Source: Prorocentrum cordatum
Lineage: Eukaryota > Sar > Dinophyceae > Prorocentrales > Prorocentraceae
Assembly (NCBI GenBank): GCA_963575745.1
Contig: CAUYUJ010014358.1
Location: 220,319-284,318 of the forward strand
Length of the DNA: 64,000 nt
Direction: 5' to 3'
The first letter of the stretch is position 1, and each line of letters starts with the position of its first letter. The notes beneath the pieces were generated by a model. It was not told the origin of the DNA. It saw only the letters and a list, made by a program, of their open reading frames with translations, and made no database searches. Position numbers and translations under genes: made by a program. Positions 12,442-44,272 of this stretch are shown piece after piece.

Positions 12442-12485
12442 ACCTGGGGGGGCGGCAAGGTATTCGCCGCAGCCCACTCCCGCCC

Positions 12486-17591: not shown

Positions 17592-17593
17592 TA
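17592..17593. other. TA target-site duplication, left copy
   Basis: TA of the interrupted TAC codon, directly preceding the left terminal inverted repeat. It is matched by TA at 34008-34009 after the right repeat. Confidence 0.8.
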
Positions 17594-17620
17594 ATCCGAA
17601 AGCCCTTATAACGGCGACGA
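17594..17620 (+). repeat. left terminal inverted repeat
   Basis: Begins ATCCGAA, then AGCCCTTATAACGGCGACGA. The latter 20 bp match the inverted right end exactly. The last 8 bp (GGCGACGA) are directly repeated at 17621-17628 on the left side only. Confidence 0.9.
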
Positions 17621-17629
17621 GGCGACGAT

Positions 17630-17694
17630 CGAAAGCAGTGCCCCGGCACTGCTTTGAACGCGTTCAAAGCAGTGCCCCGGCACTGCTTTGAACG
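17630..17694. repeat. paired subterminal palindromes, left end
   Basis: Two adjacent copies of a palindrome with arms CAAAGCAGTGCC / GGCACTGCTTTG. The second is the longer, flanked by CGTT / AACG (17661-17694). The same core occurs twice at the right end and twice at the centre of the transposon. Likely binding sites for the transposase or an accessory protein. Confidence 0.85.
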
Positions 17695-17718
17695 TATGAT
17701 ATGATGATATGATGATGA

Positions 17719-19797
17719 TTATGATTGATGATGATGATGATTTTTCCAGCGTACACTGTCCGCAACTGCGGCAATCAACATCATGCTCCACTTGCCCGCA
17801 ACTGCGGCCATCACCAACGCTGCCCCATCGAAGCTCCGCGGAGGGCGCTCGGCAGGTCGCCCGCTCGAACCCCACTCGACTTCACGCTGAGGAGGCGAGC
17901 CCTCAGGGGCATTGTCCGCAACTGCGGCATGATCAGAGGGCCACCACTGCGCGCCATCAGCGCCCCATTCGCTCGAGCTCCAGTCCCACCAGGACCAGCC
18001 CTGCCATCTCGTGGCGGGACTGCGCGCCTCCCATGCGCCGCTGCCGCTGGCGTCCCAGGACCCAGCCGCCACTGCGGCACAAGAAGGGGTCGCATCGTCG
18101 CCGTTGGCAGCTTGCGGCGGTGGCGTGTTCCCAGCTCGCTCAGCCCCAGCGTCTCTCCCCGCAACTGCGGTTCCCATCTGGGGTCGGACGCCCTTCCCCG
18201 CAACTGCGGTGTCCGCGTAGCTGCCCTTCTTGCCGCCCTTCTTGCCGCCCTTCCTGCCGCCCTTCCTGCGTTCCAACCTCGCGGCGAGTCTTTCAGGTGA
18301 CCTGCGGCACGTATTGTGCGTGAAAGCCACCAGAGGGAAGTGCGCTCCGTGCCTCGCCCTGCCGAAGGCGCCATGCCATATCTTGTCGTCGAGGTTGCCC
18401 TGCTTCACTCTGAAGGGATGGCGCACCCAATCGTCGCGTTCCCTGCGCGCCATCCTTTGCTCGAACTCCGCAACTGCGGTCAAGGATTCGCCAGATGGCG
18501 TCAGGAAGGCGCGCATCTTGTTTTCAACGGGCTCAGCCTTGGGCACGTAAGTCTGAAGCATCTTCCCAGGGCCATTCGTGTAGTCGAAGACAGGGAAAGA
18601 CGGATCATGCTGGGTCGTCAAGAATCCGCCCTCACGGTCGTGCAGAACACTCAGGCCATGGTGAAGCTTGTACTGCCCAGGACAGTTTATGAACAAAATC
18701 GCCATGCTGTCTGCCCTGGGCTGGCCGCCTGCTGTCTTCCAGGGGGTCCACGCGGCGACGTCCACAGTCAGGCCGCAATTGCGGCACCAGGACACAAGCT
18801 GGAACATGCACATGTTGAAGTCCCCCATGCAGACCTTCACGTCCCATTCCCTGACGTAGGCGACGAACCAGTTGTAGAACTCATGGAGCTTCGTGACGCC
18901 CCAGTCTTGGTTGGCCAAGCTGTGGTGGACGTGCACCGCCATGACGTTGAAGGAGCCCCCCAAATGGGTCACGGCCTGGTCCAGGTGGACGCGCACCACC
19001 ATCGCCCTGGAGTACTTGTTGTGCAGCTTTGGCGCAGGAGCCTCCGCAACTGCGGACTGTTTCTTCTTCTTCTTCGTTTTGGACTTCTCCTGCTTGTGGA
19101 AGAGTCTCGCAAAGTCTACGTGTTCAATGTGGCCGCCACTGCGGTCCCTCATGCCAACAAGGAGGGTCCCTGATGGCTCGCCGCCCTTAACGCACAGGTA
19201 GTTGTATTGAGTCCGACTCCGAAACCTATCGTCCGCAACTGCGGCTGCACTGTCCCTCGCGTCGTGCTCCCCACTGAGTACCGCGCAGGTCTCGTCGTCG
19301 CACTCGCAGAGGGCGATGATCTGGGCAGGGTTCGCGCGGAGCTGCGCCCACTCGTCCGCGCGTTGCGTGGGTCTAGCTGCAGTCCCTCCGAAGTTGGCCA
19401 CGTAGAAGCCGACCCGTCCCGCTTCGAACTCCGTTTTCTCCTCCCATGCGTCGACAAGAGCTCTTTGTTTTTCCGACAGATTGCTTGTCTCGATGATGGG
19501 CACCCGTTTCCAGGGTCTCCGCGACGACAACACTCTCGGCATGTAGGAGTCATGTGCTGCCGCAACTGCGGCTCCCGCACCTCCCCGGGACTCAGCCTCG
19601 TCAGCGGAGGCAGCCGAGGACGCGACGGTGCTGTCGCCATCTTGCGTCCGCTGGTCGTCGTCATCATCCGCAACTGCGGCTTCCTCGTCTTTGCCTCCCT
19701 CCTCCTCCTCAGCGTTGTGGATGAACACCGTTCTGGCGAATCGAGGTCCACGGTCCATACTCCCTGAGGATGCGCTCGGGCGCGCGGGCGGCCACAT
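17719..19797 (-). CDS. EEP-like (endonuclease/exonuclease/phosphatase fold) protein of the giant transposon
   Basis: 692 aa from the first in-frame ATG at 19797; 19758 is an alternative. Residues ~20-110 are acidic and low-complexity. Residues ~120-470 look globular. Features consistent with the EEP superfamily are 'IIALCECDD' (Glu of the first metal motif), 'FNVMAVHVHH', 'KVCMGDFNM' near residue 324 (the GDxN motif), and a late 'HNTC'. The C-terminal ~150 residues are basic then Gly/Trp-rich. Eight or more copies of the 12-mer motif are read here as AVA, RSCG or RSGG. In the family such domains cut DNA or RNA at abasic or unpaired sites; the role in this element is unknown. It is the last gene of a same-strand series, downstream of the transposase (gap ~330 bp). 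Confidence 0.6.
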   Translation of the reverse strand: MWPPARPSASSGSMDRGPRFARTVFIHNAEEEEGGKDEEAAVADDDDDQRTQDGDSTVASSAASADEAESRGGAGAAVAAAHDSYMPRVLSSRRPWKRVPIIETSNLSEKQRALVDAWEEKTEFEAGRVGFYVANFGGTAARPTQRADEWAQLRANPAQIIALCECDDETCAVLSGEHDARDSAAAVADDRFRSRTQYNYLCVKGGEPSGTLLVGMRDRSGGHIEHVDFARLFHKQEKSKTKKKKKQSAVAEAPAPKLHNKYSRAMVVRVHLDQAVTHLGGSFNVMAVHVHHSLANQDWGVTKLHEFYNWFVAYVREWDVKVCMGDFNMCMFQLVSWCRNCGLTVDVAAWTPWKTAGGQPRADSMAILFINCPGQYKLHHGLSVLHDREGGFLTTQHDPSFPVFDYTNGPGKMLQTYVPKAEPVENKMRAFLTPSGESLTAVAEFEQRMARRERDDWVRHPFRVKQGNLDDKIWHGAFGRARHGAHFPLVAFTHNTCRRSPERLAARLERRKGGRKGGKKGGKKGSYADTAVAGKGVRPQMGTAVAGRDAGAERAGNTPPPQAANGDDATPSCAAVAAGSWDASGSGAWEARSPATRWQGWSWWDWSSSEWGADGAQWWPSDHAAVADNAPEGSPPQREVEWGSSGRPAERPPRSFDGAALVMAAVAGKWSMMLIAAVADSVRWKNHHHHQS

Positions 19798-20124
19798 GCT
19801 TGCGTCTTCGCGTGCGCCACCTCGAGCCACGGTGGCTACGGAAATGGATCGTGAATGGGCATGGGGTCGGATGGAGGGAGGAGACAAAGAGGATTCGAGG
19901 AGTGGCAGAAGGAGGGCGAGGACTCAAAGGAACCGAAAGAACAACAAATGGACTGGCGGAGAAGCAGAAGGAGGGCGACGATTGCAAGGGACTGTGAAAG
20001 GATTATTTTCACAGCAGCAGGAAGACCGCAACTGCGGTTTTGCCTCATCTCCTGCCCGCGCGGGAGCCGCTTGGAAAAACAACTTCCCTCTGGACTTCCT
20101 GTGGGTCCGCAACTGCGGCCTGCA

Positions 20125-23100
20125 TCACGCTAGGGCTGGGATTACCAGCGCCATTTGCCCTCCCAGGGTTCTCACTGTTTCCGAATGCACGAACTGCGAC
20201 AGCGCCGAACGGTTCCCAGACGCCGCGTCGTTCGCGACTTTTTGCAGCCACCCAGCAAACGTGAGCGGCCATTGCTCCTTGTGCTGCTTGCACATCTCCT
20301 CGTCCCAATGCGTCTTGAACCATGCCCACTCCCCCCTCTGCTCGTCTGAGAGGACGCCTTTTCCGCGAGCCAGGCGATCCAGAGCTGCCATCCTGTTTTT
20401 CTTGATCTTGAACTCCTCGGGATTCCACTGCGCTAGGGCGTGTTTGTTAGCCAAAGCCGTTTCCACCGCAACTGCGGCCTCCTTCTTTGCCCTCAAGGCG
20501 GCCTCGGCCTCTCGAATCTGCTTCTTGAGATCGTGCAACGCCTTCGTCCTGTCGTTCGCTTCCAGAGCCAGGCGCCGCTTTTTCGCCACCACTGCGGCTT
20601 CGTGGTCTCGCTGGGCAGTCAACGCTCGTAGGACCTCGTTGTCCTCCCGCGCCAGCTCTCTCAACCGCTTCTTTTGTTTGTGTCGTTGCTGTCGGCAATC
20701 CTGCGCTAGTTTCTCCATGCCCACTTGGCGCAGCATATCTTCCGCCTCGCGGAGCGTTTCTGCCAAGGACGTCGCCACTGCCACCTGCTCGGCCGCCTCT
20801 GCGTCGACCACGCAGTCCATGGATACCGAGGATCCTTGAGGCCCAGGTGCCGCAACTGCGGCATCGCACTGTTCCGCAAGAGCCTCGGCCCACGAGGCCT
20901 CCTCTTGCTCTTCGTCCTCCTCGTGCTCCTCGTGCACCTCCTCCTCCTCCTCCTCCCCGCCCTCCTCATCGCCCTCCTCGTGGCCTGGCTCCTGGCCTAG
21001 CGCTTCGTCGCCGAGCTTCTCCAACACGGAATCTGTGGCGTCGTGTTTCTCGTATTCGTGTATGAGACGCAGCACGTCATTGTAGGACCATTTCAAACGT
21101 TTCTGCTCGCATTCTTCCCTCACCTCCGCGACTGCGGTGTCCACTTTTGCTCGCAGCCCCCCTGCTTCCCAGAGTTCCGCCGCCTCTCGGCAAATCTCGA
21201 GATCTCCTGACTTGTCGAAGGGCGCTCGAATTCCCACTTTCAGGAAACCTTTCGCGGCGTCCAAGTGCAACTGCACATTCTCCAACACTGACAGCATCAA
21301 GTCGGCGCAATCGGAACGCCGCAACTGCGGCACGTGCTTCCCCAACGCCATTTGCTGCACCAGCGCTTTGGTCTCGAGGGCAATGTACCGGCGCTTCACG
21401 TGCTGGTTCAAGTCCGTGTCCACGGGCTGCGCAACTGCGGTCGTCCCCCCGCCGTGAATGATCAGCACGTAGCCGCGCTGCCAGGCGAGTCTCCGCACAG
21501 CGTCTGCTTTGTGCGGGGAATGGTCGTCGGCCATGAGGATGCGCCACTTTCCCCGCAACTGCGGGTCGTCGGGCCAGGCCCGCAAGTGCCGCTGCAAGAA
21601 TGATACAACGTCGTCTGCGCGGTAGGACCCCTTCTCGGACGTCGCCGTGCTCACCCAAGACGGATAGCCGCGACTGCGGGCATGTGCGGCCAAGCCCTCA
21701 GCGATGACAGATCCCCCCTTGAACATTAGCTCCGCCGGCGGTGGTCCGCAACTGCGGATGTCCTCCGCGTCGCTCGACACCGTCAGGTTCGCTGTCCACC
21801 GAGCCCTGCTGTCGTCATGCGCCTCGACAAGCGGGACAATGCCACCCTTCACAGCCAAGGTCGGCTTCGAGGCCGACGACGACTCGTTGTGGTGAAAGGG
21901 CGACTGGTCCCAGTTCAGGATGTGCGGGTCGTACCCCAGAAGCTCCTCTGCAGCTGCGCGGACCCTGGCCACGTTCAAGATCATAGTCTCAAAACGAGAT
22001 TGGAGCAACCATTTTGGCACCTTGTACTTGCGGTTCGGCTTCTTCATGCTCAGGCCGTAGGAGCGCCGCCACTTCACCCACCACCGAGGCCGCAACTGCG
22101 GCACCATCGGTTTGCCTCCCCGCTTCATTGTCTCCACGCAGTAGTCCGCGACGAGTTGCTTCGCCTTCGTAACCAGCAGGGATTGGGAGAACCTGGCCAA
22201 CATCTTGGGCCTCTCCTCCGCAACTGCGGTTCGCTTGGCCACCGCCTTCCAGTCCACGGAGTACCTCATGTGGGACCACCACTCGTACAGAGCGGCTTCC
22301 AGCCATGGAGCCTTGTTCGGGCGCCCTTGGTTGCCCCGCGCGCGGCGTCGGCCATGCACGCCCGCCGTGCCATGTCCACCTTGTGTGCGCCAGTTTTGAA
22401 ACCACTTGGAGACGGCCTGGCGCTGCTGGACGACCCCCATGCCCTTCGGCCACGTGAACCGCCCGCAAAAAGACGCGATTGAATTCCGTGGCAGAACGCC
22501 CTCGCCCATCCAACCACAACTGCGTGCGTGCGCCTCCAGTTCTTTGCAAACCAGTTCGCGGTCTCTGAGCATGTGCGGGCACACGCGCCGCTTCTGTTCC
22601 GCAACTTCGGGTTTTGGGCGTGCGCTGGCCAGTGCGTGCGCCCTGATCTGCTCCTCCTGCAACGCCTCGGGCATAGCCTCAGCCATGGCAAGCAATATAC
22701 CCATGTCCTGCACGCCCGTCTGCCACTCTAACGCCGCCATGAGAGCGGGGCGTGGCGCGCTCGCCTCTCTCGGCGCCTCTGCTGGTTCGCCCTCGCCCTC
22801 GGAGTCGTGCAGGACCATGGGTCCAGCAGGGCCGCTGGCCCCGCAACTGCGGTACGCCCGCACCTCCTCCAAGGTTAGTTCCTGCGTGACAACGAGCATG
22901 TCGTGCAACCACGGTTCGTCCCAGCGGCGCACCCCGAAATCGTACAGTTCCTCCCGAAGCCATTTGCGCGTCTCGGCATTTTGCGGTTTCTGCAACATCA
23001 TCGCCATAAGGTCAATGCCGCAGTTTCCATCGCAAACAGTCCCTAGGACCCATTGTCCCAGAGGACCGTAGAACCTGTTCAACGCGTCCGCCCCCTCAGA

Positions 23101-24240
23101 GCACACGCCACCCACCGCAACTGCGGCCACCCAGTGGCGCACCTCATGGAGAGGGTTCTCGGGAGTCACGGGCCTGAGTTCCACCGTTGTCCATTCCCCG
23201 AACAGATCCTCAGCAGCGGCGAGTACGCACGCCACGCCGTCGACGGCGCATGGCTCAGTGCACTTCTCCTTTGCCCAAGGCATGTAGAAGTCAAGGAGGT
23301 CCTTGCGGTTCTCGCCTTCCCACACGTAAGGTCGACGCCCGAACCGCAAGGCAAACAGCATGAAAGCTGAATACCCTATGTAGGAATTCTCGGACAGAAT
23401 CTGCCTCAGGAGAGCCATCACGACGTCAGGCACCGTCGCCGCCACTGCGGCCTGGATCTTTGGCGCGTCTTCCACAGGTACACCTTTCTCTGGCGCCAGG
23501 GGTGGCGCCGCGACTCGTGGCCGCAAGGCGTCGCCAACAGGCGCCGCAACTCGTGCTGCAGCCTTTGGGTCTGGGCACGGGAAGAATGCGACCTGCGTCT
23601 TCGACCAGTTCTCTGGCAGCGGCCGCGCTGGTGGCAAGCGTGCTGGAAGTGGTGTGTCTTTGTCCGCTTCCACTCCCTCAGGAGCTTCAACCGCAATTGC
23701 GGTCTCCTGCGCAGCAGGCGGGTCTGGTGTTGCGTGCACTTGAGCTGGAGGAGCTGGAGGGACTGCTGCTGCGGGTGCTTCGGGCACAGGGGCTGCTGGA
23801 GGTTTGGGTTCTGCGGGTGCTTCTGGTGCTGGAGCTGCGTGTCCTTCTTGCGCAGGAGCTGCGAGTTCTGCTGGTGTTGCTGGTGCTATGTGTGCAGGGG
23901 CCGAGGGAGCCGCAACTGCGGTGCCGCCTGGAGCCGCAACTGCGGGGGGTGGCGTCGCGCCCGGTCGCCAAGCAGACGGCCGCAAATGAAAGCGAGGCGG
24001 CTCAACAAGGCCGTACTGCGACGCGGGCCACTTCGCTAGGCACGGAAAATCCGCACATGCGTGCACCTTTATCTTCTTGGGGCACGGAACGCCGCTACTG
24101 CGGCCCAAGATGTTGGCGAGCCCAGTGGTGCCATACTTCGTTTTCCTCGGTGCGCAGCCGCTGTCGTAATGGAGCCACTCCACCTCGAAATGCGTTCCGT
24201 CCTCCTCGCCATACCATGTCCGCCCCACGGGAACATCCAT
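20125..24240 (-). CDS. pogo/Tc5-like DDE transposase, giant form
   Basis: 1371 aa from an ATG at 24240. The N-terminal ~90 residues are unrecognised, followed by an Ala/Pro-rich linker (~95-190) and a globular segment with 'VCDGNCGIDLMAMML' near 404, which recalls the OTU-protease DGNC motif. Around 640-740 is a basic region ending in LRPRWWVKWRRSYGLSMKK, which matches CENP-B/Tc5-type helix-turn-helix sequences. The catalytic core follows: NWDQSPFH (~775, first Asp), LMADDHSPHKADAVRR (~904, second Asp), and QPVDTDLNQHVKRRY (~940, third Asp), i.e. a DDD catalytic triad. The C-terminal ~330 residues hold an acidic Glu run and a long coiled coil. The family cuts at inverted repeats and inserts at TA, exactly the ends seen here. 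Related pogo/Tigger proteins are usually 450-600 aa, so the extensions are unusual. Confidence 0.85.
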   Translation of the reverse strand: MDVPVGRTWYGEEDGTHFEVEWLHYDSGCAPRKTKYGTTGLANILGRSSGVPCPKKIKVHACADFPCLAKWPASQYGLVEPPRFHLRPSAWRPGATPPPAVAAPGGTAVAAPSAPAHIAPATPAELAAPAQEGHAAPAPEAPAEPKPPAAPVPEAPAAAVPPAPPAQVHATPDPPAAQETAIAVEAPEGVEADKDTPLPARLPPARPLPENWSKTQVAFFPCPDPKAAARVAAPVGDALRPRVAAPPLAPEKGVPVEDAPKIQAAVAATVPDVVMALLRQILSENSYIGYSAFMLFALRFGRRPYVWEGENRKDLLDFYMPWAKEKCTEPCAVDGVACVLAAAEDLFGEWTTVELRPVTPENPLHEVRHWVAAVAVGGVCSEGADALNRFYGPLGQWVLGTVCDGNCGIDLMAMMLQKPQNAETRKWLREELYDFGVRRWDEPWLHDMLVVTQELTLEEVRAYRSCGASGPAGPMVLHDSEGEGEPAEAPREASAPRPALMAALEWQTGVQDMGILLAMAEAMPEALQEEQIRAHALASARPKPEVAEQKRRVCPHMLRDRELVCKELEAHARSCGWMGEGVLPRNSIASFCGRFTWPKGMGVVQQRQAVSKWFQNWRTQGGHGTAGVHGRRRARGNQGRPNKAPWLEAALYEWWSHMRYSVDWKAVAKRTAVAEERPKMLARFSQSLLVTKAKQLVADYCVETMKRGGKPMVPQLRPRWWVKWRRSYGLSMKKPNRKYKVPKWLLQSRFETMILNVARVRAAAEELLGYDPHILNWDQSPFHHNESSSASKPTLAVKGGIVPLVEAHDDSRARWTANLTVSSDAEDIRSCGPPPAELMFKGGSVIAEGLAAHARSRGYPSWVSTATSEKGSYRADDVVSFLQRHLRAWPDDPQLRGKWRILMADDHSPHKADAVRRLAWQRGYVLIIHGGGTTAVAQPVDTDLNQHVKRRYIALETKALVQQMALGKHVPQLRRSDCADLMLSVLENVQLHLDAAKGFLKVGIRAPFDKSGDLEICREAAELWEAGGLRAKVDTAVAEVREECEQKRLKWSYNDVLRLIHEYEKHDATDSVLEKLGDEALGQEPGHEEGDEEGGEEEEEEVHEEHEEDEEQEEASWAEALAEQCDAAVAAPGPQGSSVSMDCVVDAEAAEQVAVATSLAETLREAEDMLRQVGMEKLAQDCRQQRHKQKKRLRELAREDNEVLRALTAQRDHEAAVVAKKRRLALEANDRTKALHDLKKQIREAEAALRAKKEAAVAVETALANKHALAQWNPEEFKIKKNRMAALDRLARGKGVLSDEQRGEWAWFKTHWDEEMCKQHKEQWPLTFAGWLQKVANDAASGNRSALSQFVHSETVRTLGGQMALVIPALA

Positions 24241-24615
24241 GAGCGGTCGCGTGGCGAACGACTCGGGCCGGGCACTCGGCTGCGGGCTACAGAACTAGGA
24301 AGAGGGAGGGGAGGAGGGAGGAGCAACTGAAGACGATGCGGAGGGGCGAAGAAGGAGGTACTTTTCAACAACGCCCGCGCGGAAGCCCCAATCATCGCGC
24401 GCACAGGGTTTCGATGCTTCACTCCATGCTTCTCTAAGAAAAACGCTCGCCCACACAAGTTGGCGCACTAAGGCGTGCACCCGTGGAACACCCTAAACCT
24501 TCCGCCTGCCTCCTCACACCGCCTCGCCCTCCGCGTGTTCACGCGCACCCAGCCACCCCGCAACTGCGGGCACTCAGTAGCCCCACCGCAACTGCGGCCC
24601 ATACGGCTTCGGGCC
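24241..24615. other. spacer between transposase and next gene
   Basis: No gene. It contains two exact copies of the 12-mer (near 24558 and 24585), showing that the motif is not confined to coding DNA. Confidence 0.6.
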
Positions 24616-25614
24616 TCAGTCGAACAGACTGGGGATTTGGAGCTCGAGGTAATCCAGAGCCGCTTGCTTGCGCTGGTGCTGCGTCATGCCCTCCCACTCG
24701 TAGTCGTAGCCCTTCACCGACTGCGCCGACTGCCACTTCTTCTTTGTAAGTTTCTTCACATCCATCTCGATCCTTTTGCCCTTGTTGGCACACTCTCGCG
24801 TGATGGTCGCGACCCAAGCGCCCTTGAAGTCCCAAACGACGGTGAAGCCAGAGCCGCTCCCCTGCGCCACGGGGGGGTCGACCTCCTTTTGCTTCGCCAG
24901 CGGGGTGGCAGGGTCAACCGCCGTTGCCCAGTCCCTGTCCGCCACTGCGGCCTCGTCCTTGTCGCCGTCGCCGATGTCGGGGACACCGCCGAGGCTCACG
25001 TCGTCCACGATCATGTCGATCAGCCACCCAAGGTCTGCAGCGTCCAGCCACAACGTCCTCCGCTTGAAGCTGGCCACCCGCACGTTTCGAACGGCCGTGT
25101 CGTGCGGAAACTTCATGGGGCTCTTTGCGGGCATCTGTACAGAGTGCACAGTGGCTATGGCCGACTCCACGGCCTCGCCCCTGGGCAGGCCAGTAGTCGC
25201 CGCACGCGTTCCAGTCTTCTGCTTCTTGGCGCTGGTCGGGGTCGCTGCCTGCTTCTTCGTGGCGTCCGTGGAGCTGACCAGGGCCGACATGGGGTCATCT
25301 GCTTCGTCCCCCGCGTCGCCGTCGCTCTCATCGTCCGCAACTGCGGCGCCGCCCTGCTTCGCGACTTCTTTCTTCAGCGCGTCCCAGGCCTTGGAGGCCT
25401 TCAAGGCCCCTGCGGTCGGTTTACCTTTGGCGCACACCTTGAGCAGCCAAGCCTTTTGCATGTTCACGTGCACGAAAGTTATCTCTCCGAGGGGCCATGC
25501 GTGGAGCACCTTGACATCCTTTTCGGGGACGGGGGTGGTCTGCGCAAGCCAACCTCCACGGATGCACAAGACCTTCTCAACGCACACAGGGCTCCATTCG
25601 CTCGAAGTCGGCAT
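24616..25614 (-). CDS. unrecognised protein of the giant transposon (332 aa)
   Basis: Start chosen at the ATG at 25614 (MPTSSEWSPV). The frame is open further upstream, to 25842, but that part reads through the central palindrome and is probably leader. The N-terminal ~90 residues look globular (VCVEKVLCIRGGWLAQ). The middle is acidic and Lys/Thr-rich (KKQAATPTSAKKQKTG). The C-terminus is basic-aromatic (KLTKKKWQSAQ, YDYEWEGMTQHQRKQAALDY). Two or three 12-mer copies read as AVA. No family is recognised. Basic segments suggest nucleic-acid contact, which is a guess. It lies ~375 bp upstream of the transposase in the same orientation. Confidence 0.55.
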   Translation of the reverse strand: MPTSSEWSPVCVEKVLCIRGGWLAQTTPVPEKDVKVLHAWPLGEITFVHVNMQKAWLLKVCAKGKPTAGALKASKAWDALKKEVAKQGGAAVADDESDGDAGDEADDPMSALVSSTDATKKQAATPTSAKKQKTGTRAATTGLPRGEAVESAIATVHSVQMPAKSPMKFPHDTAVRNVRVASFKRRTLWLDAADLGWLIDMIVDDVSLGGVPDIGDGDKDEAAVADRDWATAVDPATPLAKQKEVDPPVAQGSGSGFTVVWDFKGAWVATITRECANKGKRIEMDVKKLTKKKWQSAQSVKGYDYEWEGMTQHQRKQAALDYLELQIPSLFD

Positions 25615-25752
25615 GTGTGCTACTGCGCTGGACACAGCCGCAACTGCGGGCAAGGCGGGGGTGCGGGCAGTGGGGCCGCGCGCGGTTGAGCCAGATGGCG
25701 AGCTGAACGCCTCCCTGGAGGGCCTCCCTCGGTCCCTGCGATCCTCGCGCCT

Positions 25753-25879
25753 CCCTGGAGGGCCTCCGCCCTCAGAATGCTTCAAAGCAGTGCCGGGGCA
25801 CTGCTTTGAAGCATCAGATGCTTCAAAGCAGTGCCGCGGCACTGCTTTGAAGCATTCTGAGGGCGGAGGCCCTCCAGGG
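25753..25879. repeat. 127-bp near-perfect palindrome at the transposon midpoint
   Basis: The arms are inverted copies about 63 bp long, from CCCTGGAGGGCCTCCGCC on the left to GGCGGAGGCCCTCCAGGG on the right, centred at 25816 (GCAT-CAG-ATGC). The only mismatch I see is CCGGGG against CCGCGG. Each arm contains the CAAAGCAGTGCC/GGCACTGCTTTG palindrome found in pairs at both ends of the element. The centre is 8222 bp from the left end and 8191 bp from the right end. Confidence 0.9.
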
Positions 25880-26030
25880 CCTCCGCCCTCAGCCCAGGGC
25901 CCTCCAGGCCCTCCAGGGCCTCCAGGGAGGCCCTCCAGGGCCTCCAGGGAGGCCCTCCAGGGCCTCCAGGGCCCTCCAGGCCCTCCAGGGCGGACGCCCT
26001 CCAGGGCCTCCAGGGAGGGAGGGAGGGAGT
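25880..26030. repeat. CCCTCCAGGGCCT tandem repeat
   Basis: Short GC-rich repeat (CCCTCCAGGGCCTCCAGGGAGG) adjoining the central palindrome, apparently grown from its outer arm. 26030-26335 is spacer with a GGA tract and several 12-mer variants. Confidence 0.8.
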
Positions 26031-26334
26031 GAGGAAATGAGTAGTTTCGGCTTCCAACTTGGGAGGAAGGGGAGAAAGGAGGAGGAGAGAGGGAGGAAGT
26101 GGAGGAAGGGCGAGGGAGGAGAGGGAGAAGGGAGGGAGGAGGTCCGTTTCGAACCTCCGTGCTCGATCGTCAGCGGTCCGCTACTGCGGCATCAGCTAAC
26201 AGAAGCAGTGACACTGCAAACTACACGAGCGCTCCGCAACAGCGGTCACGCGTGCGCCCCCCCCTTCGGCCTGTTGCCCGCAACTGCGGTCACGCGAGCA
26301 AGCCGCCCTGACTGCCGCCACTGCGGCTTCTTAA

Positions 26335-28761
26335 TTAGAGCGACATCTTCCCGCTTTCGTCGAACCCTTTCTTCGATTTCTTCGGCGCGGGCTGGCCCGA
26401 AGGCTTCCCTTTGGCCCTCTTGGCCGCGTCCGTCTTCCACGTCTCCTCGGCCGCCTTCTTCTTCGGTGCGGTTTTGGGTCTCGCCTCCCACAGGAGCTCT
26501 TCTCCTTTCTTCACGGCCGTGGTATTCACCAGCACAGGGACATTCACGGCGAGCACGACCCCGCCTGTCCCAGGCACGCACACCGCCAATTCTTTCGTCT
26601 CCAGCTCCATGTTGATGCGCGCAACTGCGCTTTCATTACGGCTGTTTCTCTGCTGGATCTCCTGTTCCGTGACTCTGTTGACTGCCCAGAAGACGTGCAT
26701 TGTCTCTTGCGCATCCCACTTCCATGCTCTCAACCGCACATCGTGGTCAGCCACGTCGGCGGGCGTCTTGTCCGCAGGCGGCTTGAACTCGGGGTGCAAG
26801 TAGAAGGTCGTGGGCGTGGCCCCATTTGGATCTCCTTTCACCCAGACTTGCACGGCCACCCTCTCGGGGTGCGTGCTTGCGGCGTGCACCTTGGATGCCT
26901 TTGGGACGCACGGCCACAACTCGATGCATTTTTCGTCGTTTGCAGCGGTTGCCTTGACGGTGCGTTTCTCTGTGTCAGCGTCTTGCAACACCTCTACTTG
27001 CGCTTCCGCAACTGCGGACATGTGGCGCGCCCAAAGGCACAGCAACACTGCGCTGACCAAAGCAGGCTCCCGCCCCAGCTCCTTCGCTGCCGCTGAACGC
27101 CTCCATTCGGCGATTGGCAAAGGGAAGGATCCGCGTGGAATGGCCGTCGTGTCCCTGCTGCGCTGGTGGTTCGTTGGTAATTGCGTCGTGGGGTCAAAGG
27201 AAATGACCGTCGGCATCAACTCGTGCTCCTCTGCGGAAGCCTTTGTCTTCCCCGCCACTGCGGGCTCATTCGGTTCTGGGCGCGGCAACGCGTTGAAATC
27301 GAACCAATCGGGCTTCCCGCCTCGGACTCCCACTTCGCCGAGGGCCTTCTCAAGGGCGTCCCGATTGGACTTCGGCTCCACCTTCCCCGTGGCCTCCGCG
27401 CAAGCGCGGAGGAGCGCCTGACGATGTCCTGGGATACTTCGTTCCTTGACGTGGGTGTCCTTCAGGTACTGCATGAAGCCGTCTGCGGTCAGTATGCACA
27501 GGTTCGCCTTGAACTCGATCGCCTTCTCAGGGCCCATGCCGTCGATGGCCTTGCTCAGCGTGAACAAGTACAAACGGAGAGCCGAGTTCATGTCGATGAG
27601 GAAGTCTCGGAACTCCTTCTTCTTCCACGATTGTTCTGGGTCAGGGCACCACACAGGAGTGTCAACGCCCCTCTTCCTCGCAGGCGCGTTCCTGTAGCAT
27701 CGCATCACCACGGCAACCTTGACCCACGGCACTTCGTCGGGAAGCTCGCTGGCTGCCCCGAAGGCACCGAGCCGAAGGGCCCTTCTCCTGGAGTTCACGT
27801 AGACCTCGCAGAACTGGAGCAGCAAGGGGATGAACTGCGCTTTCGTGCTCCCGAGCCCAACAACGAACGAGAACAGCTCAATGAAGTCTGGGTCCTGAAC
27901 GACTCGATCGAGTTCGTGCATGACGGAGAGCTTGACCTTTTCAAAGGCAACCTGATCCGCAACTGCGGCGTGCAGCTCCGCGTCAACAGCCTTGCGCAGA
28001 ACACGGAGCGCGGTGAGTTCAGTCGTTCGCAACGCAAAATCGGCTCCTTTATTGAGGGACTGGCTGATGAGCGAAGCACCAGTGGGTTCCTCGTCCATGA
28101 TTTTCCAGCTAAGCACTTCCATGAGCATACCCCCCTGCACGAGTTTCTTAGCGACAGGGTCATGTTCCGCCACTGCGGCCATGTCGAGATTGCCGTCCTT
28201 ATCGAGCACGCGCTTCAGCCTCGCGCTCTCGTCCTCCGTGAACTCCATGCCTTGGGGGATGGGCCACTTGGCTCCCAGGGCGCACGCCCGCAACACGAGG
28301 CACAAGTGGGAGTGCGAACACGTCCCATACGCAACGTCTGTTCCGCAACTGCGGTCGAAGCACGCAGCGAGGTGGCCGGTCGCTTTTTCCAGATTGTACT
28401 CTGTGTACGTCTGGAACTTCGGGTCCTCCTTTTTTCTCAGCACCAGCTCTTGTGCTGGGTACATCTGAACGCAGACACCTTCGTGGTCAGCTTCGGCTTG
28501 CGTGAATCCAGCCAGGAAGATTTTCACAGCGAGTTCCCGAACCCTTTCCTGCTGAGGGTAGTGCCCGCCTCGGTTGCCCGTGTGCGGGGCGAGCATGAGC
28601 ACAGGGAGGCGCACCTTGTCCCCTGTCCTGAATCTAGACCTCAAGGCGTTGGCCCTCTGAAAGATCCCTTGCGTTCCGCCTGGAACTGCGGCTGTCTCGT
28701 CCGCCACTGCGGCTTTCTTGTCCGCCACTGCGGCATTATCTGTGCCGACGCTGTCGTTCAT
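26335..28761 (-). CDS. unrecognised protein of the giant transposon (808 aa)
   Basis: Start at the first ATG (28761). The N-terminus is a short repeat-derived segment: three 12-mer variants there read KAAVADETAAV-like. Residues ~30-600 look globular and cysteine-containing: CFDRSCGTDVAYGTCSHSHLC resembles a metal-binding cluster. Leu-rich helices follow (FIELFSFVVGLGSTKAQFIP, FLIDMNSALRLYLFTLSKAI). Residues ~640-740 are probably beta-rich (VAVQVWVKGDPN, VFWAVNRVTEQE). The last 60 are Lys/Ala-rich with a nuclear-localisation-like PKKSKKGF. I cannot assign a family. The long conserved-looking core and same-strand position argue for a real gene. The shorter plus-strand frame across the same region is its shadow. 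Confidence 0.6.
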   Translation of the reverse strand: MNDSVGTDNAAVADKKAAVADETAAVPGGTQGIFQRANALRSRFRTGDKVRLPVLMLAPHTGNRGGHYPQQERVRELAVKIFLAGFTQAEADHEGVCVQMYPAQELVLRKKEDPKFQTYTEYNLEKATGHLAACFDRSCGTDVAYGTCSHSHLCLVLRACALGAKWPIPQGMEFTEDESARLKRVLDKDGNLDMAAVAEHDPVAKKLVQGGMLMEVLSWKIMDEEPTGASLISQSLNKGADFALRTTELTALRVLRKAVDAELHAAVADQVAFEKVKLSVMHELDRVVQDPDFIELFSFVVGLGSTKAQFIPLLLQFCEVYVNSRRRALRLGAFGAASELPDEVPWVKVAVVMRCYRNAPARKRGVDTPVWCPDPEQSWKKKEFRDFLIDMNSALRLYLFTLSKAIDGMGPEKAIEFKANLCILTADGFMQYLKDTHVKERSIPGHRQALLRACAEATGKVEPKSNRDALEKALGEVGVRGGKPDWFDFNALPRPEPNEPAVAGKTKASAEEHELMPTVISFDPTTQLPTNHQRSRDTTAIPRGSFPLPIAEWRRSAAAKELGREPALVSAVLLCLWARHMSAVAEAQVEVLQDADTEKRTVKATAANDEKCIELWPCVPKASKVHAASTHPERVAVQVWVKGDPNGATPTTFYLHPEFKPPADKTPADVADHDVRLRAWKWDAQETMHVFWAVNRVTEQEIQQRNSRNESAVARINMELETKELAVCVPGTGGVVLAVNVPVLVNTTAVKKGEELLWEARPKTAPKKKAAEETWKTDAAKRAKGKPSGQPAPKKSKKGFDESGKMSL

Positions 28762-28789
28762 ATCTGTGCCGACGCTGTCCGCCACTGCG

Positions 28790-29465
28790 GCCCGGAGCTC
28801 CGATATGGCGGACTATGGCACGACGTCCGTCGCTCAGGGTGGAGGCGTGTGTGCCAGGAGCCCAACGACCTGCTGAGCCGAATGCCTGCGGACGACTGAA
28901 GGCTCAGTTTTAATCCAAAATATCGGGCGAGAGCTTGGGGGGGGCGCAGGCTGGAGGAGGGAGGGGGGTGCAAGCTGGAGGAGGACGAGGAGGGGAAGGG
29001 GAAGGAGAGCTAGGACGGAGGTGGCGGGGGGATGCGGCCTGGAGGAGGACGAGGAGGGAGGAGGGAGGAGGGAGGAGGGAGGAGGGAGGGGAGGAGGGAG
29101 GAGGGACGACGACGACGACGACTGCTGACGACAGACGACAGACTTGACGACGACGACGACCGACGACGACTGCTGACGACAGACGACAGACGCGACGACG
29201 ACGACGGCAGCGACGACGACGAGGACGGACGACGACGATGATGATGACCCAGCGCGCGCACACTTATTGCAAACTGCGGCTTCGCAACCGCGTGCTCTCC
29301 TATTATACGCAACCGCAACTGCGGCTTCGCAACCGCAACCCCGCAACTGCGGGCTATCCTACACCGCAACATGCACTCCATCGCTAATGGGATGCACTAC
29401 GCAGGCAGCAGGCGCCCAGTAGTACCGAGCTCTGTTCCGCAACTGCGGCTCCTCGGTCTTGCCGC
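28790..29465. other. spacer with GAC and GGA microsatellites and a 12-mer cluster
   Basis: GGA-rich at 29035-29105, GAC-rich at 29105-29245. At 29270-29490 there are four or five 12-mer copies within ~220 bp, interspersed with the partial form CGCAACCGCAA. No gene seen. Confidence 0.7.
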
Positions 29466-29467
29466 AC

Positions 29468-31294
29468 TCACCGCTCGTCCGCAACTGCGGCAGATCGCGG
29501 CTCTTCGTGCTTCCGCTTGCTCGCCCGACTTGCGCGTCCGTGGCCGACGAAGACGATGTTTTGGTGGATGCCCTCGCACCAGTGCGTGCTGAAGGTCTTC
29601 TCGTTGAGCTCCTTCTGAATGACCTTGCCGATTGGGGGCAGCGCTGCCAAGCCGAGCTTTTCTCTGACTCCGCTACTGCGGTCAGGGTCATCCTCCCACT
29701 TGGGCATGTACTTCGCTGGGACCCAGCGCCGAGAGATGATGGAGTCGCTTGTTCGATGCATCCAATCAGGGAGCCACTGGGGATCGTTCTTCGACGGCCT
29801 CCCTGCAAAATCCAGGTTGTAGTCCGCAATGCGCACGTCGCACGGGCCAATGGGGAGGACGTAATTCGGATGCATGACGCGTGTGCCCTCCACAATGCCT
29901 CCGAACAGGGCGGGTCCAGCCCTGAACACCACCCCCACCGGGCAGGTGTAGCTGGCTCCGCAACTGCGGCCAAATGCTGCGAGCTGCTCAGGCGGGATGT
30001 CAAACAGGCCGCACAAGAACCGCACATCATTTTTATGGATGGAAGCAACCGCGTCCTTGAAGAAACCTGGCTGCCACGCTGTTTGTTCTGTTTGCGTGAT
30101 CTTCTGTTGGAGACGTTCGGTGACTGCGTGTCTGGACACGACGGCAAAACGGATCACCGCGGCAGGATTCATGTCGGAGCCCTTCAGGCGAAAGCGCAGG
30201 ATCGTGACGGCGTGGGTGGCCCCAACAACATGACCCGCAACTGCGGTCTCTGCGATGATGTGCGGGCGCACGAGCACCACGCCCGTGTCTCTGAACAGGC
30301 CAACCGTCGTCCAGTAAGGCTCCGCGGTGTTGTTTTTCAAAGTGACAGCGTCTTCGACGGCAGTCCTGAGTCCAACGGGAACGTCGTAGCTGCAAGCGCC
30401 TTCGACGTTCCCCGTGCGGAACAGCTCGGGGTCCCATACGACGAAGACGACCGCCGCAGTTTGGTGCAAGATGCACCTGAAGACATCTTCCTTTGTTGCC
30501 ACCTTCGTGATGACCACCACGTTGAACACCAAAGCGATGGTGGACGGAACCCGATTGCCGTCTTCTGTACGAAGGAATCCTTCGTTCCACTTGGGGCGTT
30601 CCCCAAAGTAGTTTATCCCTGGAGGGGACCTGGTCCGCTGCTTCTTCCGCGGTGCTCCCGCATCTTCCCGCAACTGCGGTTCCGACGGAGGCCCCGCGCG
30701 ACCCCGCGACTGCGGTTCTGACAGCGGCGAGTCTTCCGTGGGAGGCGGCCTTTTCCTCGGCCGCGAATCGGCCGAGGCGGTTGTCTCGGCGGCTTTCTCC
30801 TGGGAGGCGGCCTCGTCTTCGGGTTGGGCGCCTCGTTTGGACTCGGCTGCGAGCAGCACGGCCGAGGGCGCGCTGCTCCCAGATGAGCCGCGCGCGGCAC
30901 CTGGCTCGCCGGCCACCCCCGCAACTGCGGTCTCGGTGGCGGCTCCCGTCACTGCTGGTTGGTCCTGCTGCTTCGTCGGCGTCTGCGCCCGAGGCCCCCA
31001 TTTTGCCTTGGGGGTCAAGTGCGCCCTGCGCAACTGCGCCTCTTCGCGCCTCCCACCAGCAGAGCTCCCACTCGCAGCGCTTATCGGCGGCGGCGGCCGA
31101 TATTCCCGCGAGGAGCTAGACGACTGCGGGGAGGCCTCGCGCGGCGGTCGCTCGGGGCTTCCGCAACTGCGGTCCTCCGTCGGCTCCGCGACTGCGGCAT
31201 CCGCGGCAGCCCCTTGCAGGCCGAACCTTTCCCGCAGTTGCTGCTTCAGCTCGGCGAACCGCTTGTCGACCTCGGCTTTGCGACCTGGGTCCAT
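29468..31294 (-). CDS. unrecognised protein of the giant transposon (608 aa)
   Basis: Start ATG at 31294 (MDPGRKAEVDKRF). Residues ~1-225 are disordered: Ser/Pro/Arg/Glu-rich with basic clusters (PRKRPPP, PRKKQRTRSPP) that could be nuclear localisation signals. Residues ~230-590 look globular, with alternating hydrophobic strands (STIALVFNVVVITKV, AAVVFVVWDPELFRTG, VVLVRPHIIAETAVAG) and a Trp-rich end (DPQWLPDWMHRTSD). The general strand pattern somewhat recalls the EEP-like neighbour at 17719-19797, but I see no catalytic set, so this is only a suggestion. 12-mer copies read as PQLR, AVA and RSCG. No family assigned. Confidence 0.55.
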   Translation of the reverse strand: MDPGRKAEVDKRFAELKQQLRERFGLQGAAADAAVAEPTEDRSCGSPERPPREASPQSSSSSREYRPPPPISAASGSSAGGRREEAQLRRAHLTPKAKWGPRAQTPTKQQDQPAVTGAATETAVAGVAGEPGAARGSSGSSAPSAVLLAAESKRGAQPEDEAASQEKAAETTASADSRPRKRPPPTEDSPLSEPQSRGRAGPPSEPQLREDAGAPRKKQRTRSPPGINYFGERPKWNEGFLRTEDGNRVPSTIALVFNVVVITKVATKEDVFRCILHQTAAVVFVVWDPELFRTGNVEGACSYDVPVGLRTAVEDAVTLKNNTAEPYWTTVGLFRDTGVVLVRPHIIAETAVAGHVVGATHAVTILRFRLKGSDMNPAAVIRFAVVSRHAVTERLQQKITQTEQTAWQPGFFKDAVASIHKNDVRFLCGLFDIPPEQLAAFGRSCGASYTCPVGVVFRAGPALFGGIVEGTRVMHPNYVLPIGPCDVRIADYNLDFAGRPSKNDPQWLPDWMHRTSDSIISRRWVPAKYMPKWEDDPDRSSGVREKLGLAALPPIGKVIQKELNEKTFSTHWCEGIHQNIVFVGHGRASRASKRKHEEPRSAAVADER

Positions 31295-31959
31295 GGCGTG
31301 GCCGCGCGCGGCCCCCGTCCGACGGGGGAACTGCGGCCGGCTTGGGAGAGGAAGGACAACGAGGGAGACGGCGGGGATGAGGACGAGGAAGGCGAAGAGG
31401 AGGATGGAGAGGACGCGACGGAAGAGGATGGCGCGAAGAGCTCAGACGAGGGTGAAAGGAGCAAGGGGACTGCGACGAGGATGACGGGGCAGAAACGGAG
31501 GAGGAGGAATCAACAAAGTCCGCAACTGCGGCCCTCGGGGGGGACTGCGACGAGGACGACGGGAAATGACTCGGCCAACGGAGGCGGGCTACGGCCAACG
31601 GAAGGAACTGCGACGAGGAGGAAAGGCGGAGGGAGGAGACTGCGACGAGGACGACGGGGAAGGGGCGACGAGGACGACGAACAACTGCGGATCCATCTGT
31701 TTAAGTACCTGTCTCCGCAACTGCGGCCGCGCTAATTAACGTCACGAGTGCTTCAACGGAGGTGATGCGCGCCCGAAGCACCTAATTACAGCGGTCAGTC
31801 GTGGGAGCGCCGCAACTGCGGCCAAGCTGTATGAAGTCGCTAGAAGGCAGCGCCGCAACTGCGGCCGAAAGCGCGCATAGTGAGTCAAACGAGCGCGGCG
31901 TCACGCGATCGGTCCCCGCAACTGCGGTTCCATGGCTGCGCAATCCCGCAACTGCGGTG
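31295..31959. other. spacer with GAGGAC repeats and 12-mers
   Basis: The left part is GAGGACGAC-rich with short copies of GGGGACTGCGACGAGGA. The right part (31700-31960) holds five exact 12-mers. No gene recognised. Confidence 0.6.
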
Positions 31960-33126
31960 TCAAGGCTGCGCGGACCACCGCGGTTGCAGCTGCGCCCCCT
32001 TGCTCGCGTCGAACCGCCCAGGATTCGGATGGGCGTGCAGCATCTTCCAGAACGTGAACGTTCCGTGGCCATCGCTCTTGCCGAGACCTGCCCTCGGGCC
32101 CCGCACGGGATGCGAGTGCGGCTCCACCTCATACGTGTTGAACTTCGGGCTAGACCAGGATGGGTGGACGCGAATGCCCGAGCCGTCGTCGCGGATGAGG
32201 ACGAAATCCCACTGGGGCAGAGGGATTCTTTGCGCCTGTCCTCTGTCCACCCCTTTCGTGTGCCTCATGTTGTCGAGACTGCTAGGGCACGGGCGGCACT
32301 CGCAGCGGACCAACCCGCGACTGCGGTCATTGTCAGGGCCGCACACGACGCGCAGCATTGTAGGTCCATCCATCTGCGCGACCATCTCCAGCCAAGACCA
32401 CGGCACTTTGACAGTGTGGTCCCAGTCCCAATCCCTGTTGTCCTGCGCCTTCCCCTTTGCGCGGTACTTAAGGATCTTCGAAATTTCCTCCGCAACTGCG
32501 GTACCTCCGAAGACGGGCGTGCGGCTGCCGAAAGGGTTTTCTCGGTCTTCGTACTCGTCTCGGAACCACTTCAAGGCCGCGTTGTGCTGCTTATAATTGC
32601 CGTTCCAGTTCGCCCTGAAGTTCTCGAAGAATTCCAACTTGAAAATTGGCAGCGGCTCATTGCGCACAATTTGAAACAGCGCAACTGCGCCTTGTTCTTC
32701 GCGCCCTGGGGGAAGCAGGGGACCGCCTCCTTTGCCCGCCGCTGTTGCGGCCGCGGGCTCCGCGGCAGGAGAACCTGCCGAGGCACTCGAGCGGCCACCT
32801 TCCCATGCATTCCACCAGCCACCCTCGTCGTCCCACCAGCGGGCGCCCTCCATTCCCCAACCCTCGCATCCGTTGCCGCCCCATCCGCCGCCCTCCCATC
32901 CGCGACTGCGGTCACTTCCGTCGCCGCCATCCTGCGCTTTTCCTCTCCATCCGCCAAGAGAATCTCCGCCGCCCCAGCCGCCACTGCGGTCACCTCCGCC
33001 GCCGTATCCGCCACTGCGGCCGCCCCAACCCCCACTTGTTCCCCAACCGCCGCCGCTGCTCTTTGAAGAATCCGCAACTGCGGCCCGTGTTTCCTCTTCC
33101 GCTTTGTCATCCCACCCTGCACGCAT
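31960..33126 (-). CDS. unrecognised Gly/Trp-rich protein of the giant transposon (388 aa)
   Basis: The start at 33126 (MRAGWDDK) is preferred. The frame is open to 33330, but the extra N-terminus, including a leucine run, is translated GGA microsatellite. Residues ~20-130 are Gly/Trp-rich (SGGWGGRSGGYGGGG), and several 12-mers read RSGG or RSRG within this tract. Residues ~150-388 look globular: FKLEFFENFRANWNGNYKQH, WDFVLIRDDGSGIRVHPSW, and a C-terminal THIS-like 'SDGHGTFTFWKMLHAHPN'. No domain recognised. As the gene furthest right, it would be the first transcribed from the right end. Confidence 0.55.
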   Translation of the reverse strand: MRAGWDDKAEEETRAAVADSSKSSGGGWGTSGGWGGRSGGYGGGGDRSGGWGGGDSLGGWRGKAQDGGDGSDRSRGWEGGGWGGNGCEGWGMEGARWWDDEGGWWNAWEGGRSSASAGSPAAEPAAATAAGKGGGPLLPPGREEQGAVALFQIVRNEPLPIFKLEFFENFRANWNGNYKQHNAALKWFRDEYEDRENPFGSRTPVFGGTAVAEEISKILKYRAKGKAQDNRDWDWDHTVKVPWSWLEMVAQMDGPTMLRVVCGPDNDRSRGLVRCECRPCPSSLDNMRHTKGVDRGQAQRIPLPQWDFVLIRDDGSGIRVHPSWSSPKFNTYEVEPHSHPVRGPRAGLGKSDGHGTFTFWKMLHAHPNPGRFDASKGAQLQPRWSAQP

Positions 33127-33469
33127 CTCTGCCCCGACTGCAGGCCGCGGAGGCGGGCGCGAGCCCGCCCAACCGCCGTGAAACCTACCGTCGGCGCGGG
33201 CTTGAGCCGAACGTGCATGGAGGAGGAGGATGAGGAGGAGGAGGGTGAATGTGAGGAGGATGATGCGTTCCTGGGAGGTGTGCCTTCGCGTGCAACACAA
33301 GAGCCCTGAGAATTCCTGAGGCCCCTCCAACAGCCAAGGACGCGGATGACAAGAAAGTCGAGAAGATTGGGAACCGATTGAGGATTAAGAGGCGTGCGAC
33401 GAAAGGGATGATGATGACGAAGAGGAAGATCAGTGAAGGGGAGGAGCGGACAGGAATTATGGAGGAGTG

Positions 33470-33760
33470 ATAGCAGAGGAGGAAGAGGGGGAAGGGGGAG
33501 GAGGAGGAGGAGGAGGAGGAGGGAGAGGAAAAGGGGGAGGAGGAGGAGGAGGAAGAAGGTGAGGAGGAGGAAGGAGGAGGAGGAGGGAGGAGGAGGAGGA
33601 AGAGGAGGAGGAGGACGACGACGACGAGGAGGAGGAGGAGGAGGAGAGGGAGAAGGAGAACGGGGACAGGAGGACAAGGACGGAGAAATATAACAAATGA
33701 GGGGGAGGAGGCGGAGGAGGAGGAGGACGAGGAGGAGAAGCAGGAAGAGGAGGAGGAGAG
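33470..33760. repeat. (GGA)n microsatellite inside the transposon's right end
   Basis: Polypurine tract with a GACGAC interruption at 33613-33627. 33760-33900 is non-repetitive with no gene. Confidence 0.9.
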
Positions 33761-33906
33761 GGGGGAGGAAGAGTGCGCGTGAGACTGGGAGAACGAGGTA
33801 ATTAATTAGAGAGGGAACGGGGGAGGAGGGAGGACAAGGAAGAGCATACAGCGACGAGAAGAGGAGAAGGAACAGACGAAGGCTCCTGCTGATCGCATTT
33901 CCGCAT

Positions 33907-33979
33907 CGTTCAAAGCAGTGCCGGGGCACTGCTTTGAACGACTGGTGATGTTCAAAGCAGTTCCCCGGCACTGTGTTCC
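33907..33979. repeat. paired subterminal palindromes, right end
   Basis: 33907-33940 is a full copy (CGTTCAAAGCAGTGCC / GGCACTGCTTTGAACG). 33951-33978 is a decayed copy (TTCAAAGCAGTTCC / GGCACTGTGTT). This mirrors the pair at the left end. Confidence 0.85.
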
Positions 33980-33980
33980 A

Positions 33981-34007
33981 TCGTCGCCGTTATAAGGGCT
34001 ATTGGAT
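33981..34007 (-). repeat. right terminal inverted repeat
   Basis: TCGTCGCCGTTATAAGGGCT then ATTGGAT, the inverse of the left repeat with two mismatches. Followed by the TA duplication at 34008-34009. Confidence 0.9.
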
Positions 34008-44126: not shown

Positions 44127-44272
44127 ATGTCCGACTGGGGGGGCTGCAAGCCTCCAGGCGGAAGGGATACCGCTAGTCCGCGGCCAGCCTCCAGTTTTCC
44201 TGTGAGCTCCTGGGGGAGCGCCATCCGCTTAATCTACTTGATTGCCGCGGCGGTGCTTGTGAGCTGTGCAGA

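Follow-up and report, generated by a model that had tools for sequence, protein, structure and literature searches.

A 64,000-base stretch of the genome of the dinoflagellate Prorocentrum cordatum, referred to throughout as the window, carries what its sequence identifies as a multigene DNA transposon, and the coding strand of this element is studded with a 12-base word, CCGCAGTNGCGG. The minus strand of the window holds 69 copies of the word and the plus strand none (both strands counted), and this array suggests that the element marks itself with a signal borne by one strand, most likely as RNA.

The 12-mer array

All 69 copies fall within the element (Table 1), the last of them starting at 33072, with a mean gap of 225 bases. 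Eleven of the 12 positions are fixed; the remaining base, N, is T in 48 copies, G in 12, C in 6, and A in 3. These counts bear out the initial annotation, which had estimated about 70 copies, about 48 of them with T at N, and had placed every one on the coding strand. Near-misses are scarce: between 17700 and 33300, copies with one mismatch at the 11 fixed positions number six on the minus strand and four on the plus strand.

The six open reading frames (ORFs) of the element hold 52 of the copies and the sequence outside them 17, the spacers being richer in the word (6.9 per kb) than the ORFs (4.0 per kb). Within ORFs all three codon frames are in use, as had been noted: 34 copies read Ala-Val-Ala (N is T in 25, G in 7, and C in 2), 13 read R-S-x-G (T in 5, G in 3, C in 3, and A in 2), and 5 read P-Q-x-R (T in 4 and C in 1). 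Outside ORFs, N is T in 14, G in 2, and A in 1. The annotation was right that bases other than T occur in the first two frames; of its further claim that none occurs in the third, what holds is that N=A, which would create a TAG stop, is absent there, and the single N=C copy reads P-Q-S-R.

Codon usage does not explain these numbers. Synonymous-codon shuffles of the six ORFs gave a mean of 1.15 and a maximum of 5 copies against the 52 observed, which refutes codon bias as the cause, and for the reverse orientation, observed 0 times in the ORFs, the shuffle mean was 0.18. Permutation of codons gave a mean of 0.02 copies, and an order-3 Markov model predicted 0.03 copies with the motif masked and 0.3 unmasked. 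From the first ATG to the last stop of the element the density is about 4.5 per kb, compared with a genome average of about 8 per Mb. No copy lies in the 780 bp that separate the first ATG from the right terminal repeat (33127 to 33906), against 3.5 expected (P 0.03); neither terminal repeat contains one, both being too short for this to be telling (0.5 and 0.6 expected).

Copies elsewhere in the genome

The annotation had stated that no copy lies outside the transposon. This is correct for the 64-kb window and incorrect for the genome, in which 33,633 matches to CCGCAGTNGCGG, and 5,964 to the same pattern in reversed order, were counted in 4.13 Gb. Four clusters hold 66 of the 100 places listed from these 33,633 matches. 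One-way clusters among the places listed are C15 with 42 copies, C84 with 28 (14 of them listed), and C4 with 5. A further cluster, C3 (L062, G000:C3:990001-1000000), contains five 12-mers, all with N=G and in both orientations, and is the only mixed cluster among those listed.

Alignment with other copies, a comparison that the annotation had proposed, covers two of these clusters. The diverged C15 element, with 42 copies of CCGCAGTNGCGG forward and 0 reverse, is collinear with that of the window and partly alignable, with 59% identity over aligned bases. Of the window sites that could be aligned with it, 17 of 37 are intact, compared with 45 of 2,628 random 12-mers; the other 32 of the 69 sites were not alignable and are left out of this comparison. 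C84 is a partial copy of the window element with 98% identity and shares 27 of 28 sites.

Upkeep of the word in protein relatives

In relatives with 75 to 80% protein identity, the peptide encoded by the word is kept at 20 of 23 covered sites (10/12, 5/5, and 5/6), while 35 to 46% of random four-residue windows are identical; Ala-Val-Ala sites were scored on three residues only, so that chance identity there is somewhat higher. The more distant P0003 (about 54% protein identity) keeps 2 of 15 covered sites, has 10 changed at equal length, one of which is an alignment shift, and has 3 in gaps; it also carries sites of its own. On these alignments, the 12-mer is a word that arises by base substitution, in all three frames.

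The same peptides are enriched across the families of the element's proteins, whose members were chosen by words shared with the query among the matches listed, so that a slight bias to proteins with the same peptides is possible. In 97 transposase relatives, the window's own protein excluded, the three frame peptides occur 55, 530, and 208 times against 2.9, 11.7, and 6.0 expected, an enrichment of 19 to 45 times. The 36 relatives of ORF1 have 7, 68, and 54 (0.4, 1.5, and 1.2 expected), and the 12 relatives of ORF3 have 6, 42, and 3 (0.2, 1.0, and 0.2 expected). In ORFs of the window outside the element, the three peptides occur once each in 8,653 residues. By position, the P-Q-x-R and R-S-x-G peptides of the transposase relatives form 42 clusters, and two of these occur in 60 and 52 relatives.

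It is scarcely credible that the array is a by-product, whether of repeated insertion by a mobile 12-mer, of codon bias, of low complexity, or of a repeat at the protein level. In favor of such an origin are the length of the word, 12 being divisible by three, the frequent coding of Ala-Val-Ala, and peptide repeats in a few relatives that include the word. This origin is contradicted by the use of all three frames, by the synonymous shuffles, by the in-place replacement of aligned residues in P0003, and by reversed transposase-relative proteins, which contain the three peptides 0, 69, and 12 times against 55, 530, and 210 in the real ones. The short peptide repeats containing the word's peptides were seen in P0089, P0136, P0143, and P0146, and tandem duplication may be one route by which sites multiply in these proteins.

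The word also has dialects. One DNA relative, L042, was found in the genome collection, on a 7.7-kb contig of a metagenome bin, with a transposase 36% identical to that of the window. The coding strand of L042 carries CCGCAATNACGG 21 times and its other strand 0 times, and copies with one mismatch are absent; this dialect has an AATN loop with C-A at the closing position, where the word of the window has AGTN closed by C-G. Judged from its peptides, P0006 fits an intermediate dialect, CCGCAATNGCGG. Close relatives keep the word and the distant L042 uses a dialect, a pattern that at the level of sequence is that of a family-specific iterated motif.

A probable hairpin in one strand

The annotation had proposed that the word is recognized as RNA and not as double-stranded DNA. 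A folding computation finds the 12-mer able to fold alone, and the bases flanking it at -1 and +1 pair in 57 of 132 cases when three elements are pooled, compared with 41.2 by chance (0 of 5,000 shuffles). There is no pairing excess further out, at -2 to -6 in the window or -2 to -4 in C15. In L042, which has lost the inner pair, the stem is lengthened on its outer side. The strict orientation, the confinement to the expressed stretch, and the covariation just outside the word support the reading of a hairpin formed by one strand. This part of the proposal stands on flank covariation and on orientation in relatives; as for its other part, RNA is most simply the carrier, we infer, because the orientation would then follow from transcription, and one DNA strand also fits.

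We judge it an even call that the 12-mer is a self-tag, forming hairpins in the element's transcript that are bound by a sequence-specific, most likely element-made protein. The coding strand would become single stranded, most likely as a long unidirectional transcript, and each copy would fold to a short hairpin, CCGC-AGUN-GCGG, optionally with one further outer pair. The protein would bind many copies and coat or mark the transcript as the element's own, with plausible effects being shielding from silencing or decay, export, or a bias of the proteins made by the element toward its own transcript. Selection would hold about one tag per 225 bases, with copies gained and lost by substitution where the proteins tolerate it, and as the specificity of the reader drifts, a lineage's copies would shift to a new dialect. 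Because the word changes with lineage, the element itself probably encodes the reader, for which the ORF1 product is the best candidate. More tentatively, the system could amount to an RNA self-identity code of a family of giant dinoflagellate transposons, in which a dense one-way hairpin word runs through the genes at a cost to protein sequence, ORF1 (possibly a new fold) is the RNA-binding reader, dialects separate related elements, and the proteins act on or protect their own transcripts only.

Several observations weigh against a one-strand, RNA-borne tag. In the window alone the -1/+1 pairing has a P of 0.055, and the pooled test is not fully independent because 17 sites are common to the window and C15; the hairpin probability is 0.42 with the flanks of the window and 0.43 with shuffled flanks. 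T is favored at N in the window even at four-fold synonymous or noncoding sites, and with T there the word is almost a palindrome as DNA. The six ORFs all run in the same direction, so that the transcript strand and a DNA strand are indistinguishable. Cluster C3 has 2 and 3 copies in the two orientations, the C4 fragment has its first site just 221 bases in from the terminal repeat, and C84 displays no clear selection at its sites (4 substitutions at motif positions against 5.2 expected); judged from these substitutions, the C84 copy looks neutral, which would be expected if copies are young. In the 97 transposase relatives, opposite-orientation peptides are themselves in excess (24, 16, and 6 against 9.2, 7.3, and 1.2 expected, or 2 to 5 times). 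The candidacy of ORF1 is based on its Gly/Arg-rich tail, its position, and one zinc-knuckle relative.

It is quite unlikely that the word is read in single-stranded DNA, where it would act as an oriented protection signal resembling Chi or an origin, for example when the element is excised, repaired, or copied replicatively. The strict strand and the hairpin covariation suit any single strand, but the 780 bp ahead of the first ATG move with the element and yet are free of the word, and a DDE-type transposase would imply double-strand cut and paste.

The annotation also pointed to yeast Rnt1, an RNase III that binds AGNN tetraloop hairpins and needs a long stem. The window dialect, with its AGUN tetraloop closed by C-G, resembles Rnt1 substrates, and each of the five spacers has at least two sites, as self-processing or small-RNA release might use. 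The stem is nevertheless limited to one outer pair in both the window and C15, a C-G-closed AGNN loop is missing from the L042 dialect CCGCAATNACGG, and 52 of the 69 sites lie in ORFs, where cutting would destroy the message. Because a long stem is lacking and L042 breaks the closing pair, the Rnt1 link is not supported, and RNase III-like substrates are very improbable.

Comparison with known systems

The annotation knew of no described equivalent, and we likewise found no published account of such an array in a transposon among the matches listed from the open-licence literature. By analogy, the nearest known system in kind is the VANC anti-silencing system of the Arabidopsis VANDAL transposons, also a DNA transposon family with many copies of a short word that differs between related families. 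As far as the cited passages go, VANC words are 8 to 9 bases long, differ between VANDAL families, lie in noncoding tandem repeats, and are bound as double-stranded DNA (PMC5735166). The present element likewise has a family-specific iterated motif (CCGCAGTNGCGG in the window and C15, CCGCAATNACGG in L042), but its word has 12 bases, is dispersed, lies mostly in ORFs in one orientation, and has hairpin covariation.

A VANC-like tag on duplex DNA, with an element-encoded DNA-binding protein that brings an anti-silencing activity such as the SET-like ORF3 or demodification, and with dialects arising by protein-site coevolution, is unlikely though well short of negligible. The arms are palindromic and the preference for T at N in the window extends the palindrome, VANC motifs too differ between families in the part of the account cited (PMC5735166), and the chromatin-type SET fold that ORF3 likely encodes hints at chromatin action, which keeps this explanation alive. 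It leaves unexplained the orientation (69:0, 42:0, and 21:0) and the pairing of bases outside the word, and the noncoding tandem repeats of VANC motifs contrast with 52 of 69 copies inside ORFs.

DNA uptake sequences are about 12 bases long and are not known to be limited to one element or one strand. Those of the Neisseriaceae resemble the array in being, in the cited excerpt, iterated words with lineage dialects (PMC3630211). Unlike the word described here, they are bacterial and serve the uptake of incoming DNA. Cyanobacterial HIP1 is likewise a GC-rich word at very high copy number, but in the portion of the source cited it is a fully palindromic octamer, genome-wide and methyltransferase linked, for which no orientation is possible (PMC4390886). 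The 69:0 count departs from the equal strands of such a palindrome. The packaging signals of RNA viruses have a loose consensus. Like the proposed tag, they are dispersed RNA signals of a common type read by the virus's own protein, according to the cited section (PMC6281560). Packaging signals belong to an RNA genome, whereas here an exact word lies in a DNA transposon. This word runs along coding sequence, can fold alone, and covaries outside, and the flanks in the window do not favor the fold.

The carrier transposon and its genes

The terminal inverted repeats, 103 bp each when aligned, are flanked by TA at 17592-17593 and 34008-34009, matching a TA target-site duplication, with no empty site seen; both are features of TA-inserting DDE transposons of the Tc1/mariner/pogo type.

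Table 1. Positions of the element, its genes, and the 12-mer array in the window
Feature	Position	Strand	Remarks
Giant DNA transposon, 16.4 kb, six ORFs	17594..34007	minus	Aligned terminal inverted repeats, flanking TA
Left terminal inverted repeat incl. flanking TA	17592..17694	plus	Contains palindromes of form AAAGCAGTGCCCCGGCACTGCTTT
Right terminal inverted repeat incl. flanking TA	33907..34009	minus	Alignment to left repeat
12-mer-free stretch, 780 bp	33127..33906	minus	Between right terminal repeat and first ATG
ORF1, 388 amino acids from ATG at 33126	31960..33126	minus	Gly/Arg-rich N terminus and conserved folded C-terminal domain of about 220 amino acids
ORF2, 608 amino acids	29468..31294	minus	No significant Pfam match
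ORF3, 816 amino acids	26335..28785	minus	SET-domain-like fold modelled in C-terminal part (about 585-776)
ORF4, 408 amino acids	24616..25842	minus	Real start likely at later Met
ORF5, 1371 amino acids, transposase	20125..24240	minus	DDE_1-like core (NWDQSP, MADDHSPH, QPVDTDLNQH); OTU-like DGNC motif by eye
ORF6, 722 amino acids	17719..19887	minus	Endonuclease/exonuclease/phosphatase-like by eye only
Array of 69 copies of CCGCAGTNGCGG	17760..33083	minus (coding)	Pattern count
12-mer plus-strand starts 1-18	17760 17796 17916 18066 18159 18198 18468 19044 19133 19233 19560 19668 20026 20107 20466 20850 21126 21319		
12-mer plus-strand starts 19-36	21553 21668 21746 22090 22218 22841 23115 23439 23910 23934 24092 24558 24586 24939 25335 25638 26178 26278		
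12-mer plus-strand starts 37-54	26315 27006 27252 27957 28167 28343 28701 28722 28779 29313 29341 29437 29479 29670 29958 30235 30668 30704		
12-mer plus-strand starts 55-69	30919 31161 31186 31520 31715 31810 31853 31916 31946 32315 32490 32900 32978 33008 33072		

The transposase, ORF5, belongs to a family of 98 proteins including the window's own, among the matches listed. Its Pfam DDE_1 match, with E values of 0.06 to 0.09, is below the curated cut-off; the D residues of NWDQSP, MADDHSPH, and QPVDTDLN are conserved across 13 transposase sequences (set A1). The ORF1 family comprises 37 proteins, one of them identical to that of the window, and 33 were aligned with the window ORF1 as set A3, in which 1 of 34 members matches a CCHC zinc knuckle. 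The structure model of ORF1 has a predicted local distance difference test score (pLDDT) mostly of 80 to 97 over residues 161 to 380, and comparison of the model with the PDB gave no convincing match. ORF6 has no Pfam match. Pfam names no capsid protein among the six ORFs, a silence that does not exclude one.

From the structure model, ORF3 probably encodes a SET-domain-like fold, in a DNA transposon of the dinoflagellates, a lineage with little nucleosomal chromatin. A stretch of 35 amino acids of ORF3 (residues 413 to 447) is identical in one P. cordatum host gene model, and 30 residues are identical in another (the two being P0112 and P0113, which bear the names casein kinase I and thioredoxin domain protein); it looks as though a fragment of ORF3 had become an exon of host genes on two occasions. 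A 63-nucleotide palindrome with arms 98% complementary, at 25753-25879 within the element, resembles the palindromes of the terminal repeats (AAAGCAGTGCC...GGCACTGCTTT) and is possibly an internal relic or a small insertion.

Other features of the window

A long interspersed nuclear element (LINE)-like ORF at 12339-17186 adjoins the left end of the element; it has an endonuclease/exonuclease domain (Pfam E value, 1.4e-5) and a subthreshold RNase H match (E value, 0.009). A 21-base sequence at 44106-44126 matches the dinoflagellate spliced leader perfectly and abuts the start codon of an ORF at 44127; the two together look like a retroposed mRNA.

Implications

The array shows strong nucleotide-level selection inside the protein-coding genes of a eukaryotic transposon, in all frames, and to our knowledge no known transposon system explains such selection inside genes. 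The dialects offer natural pairs for identifying the reader protein, and a set of orthogonal 12-base RNA tags, each with its binder, would make useful tools. If RNA is the carrier, the array would be a self/non-self code for transcripts, and it would become possible to test how a DNA transposon, in a genome where transcription is little controlled, locates or shields the message it encodes.

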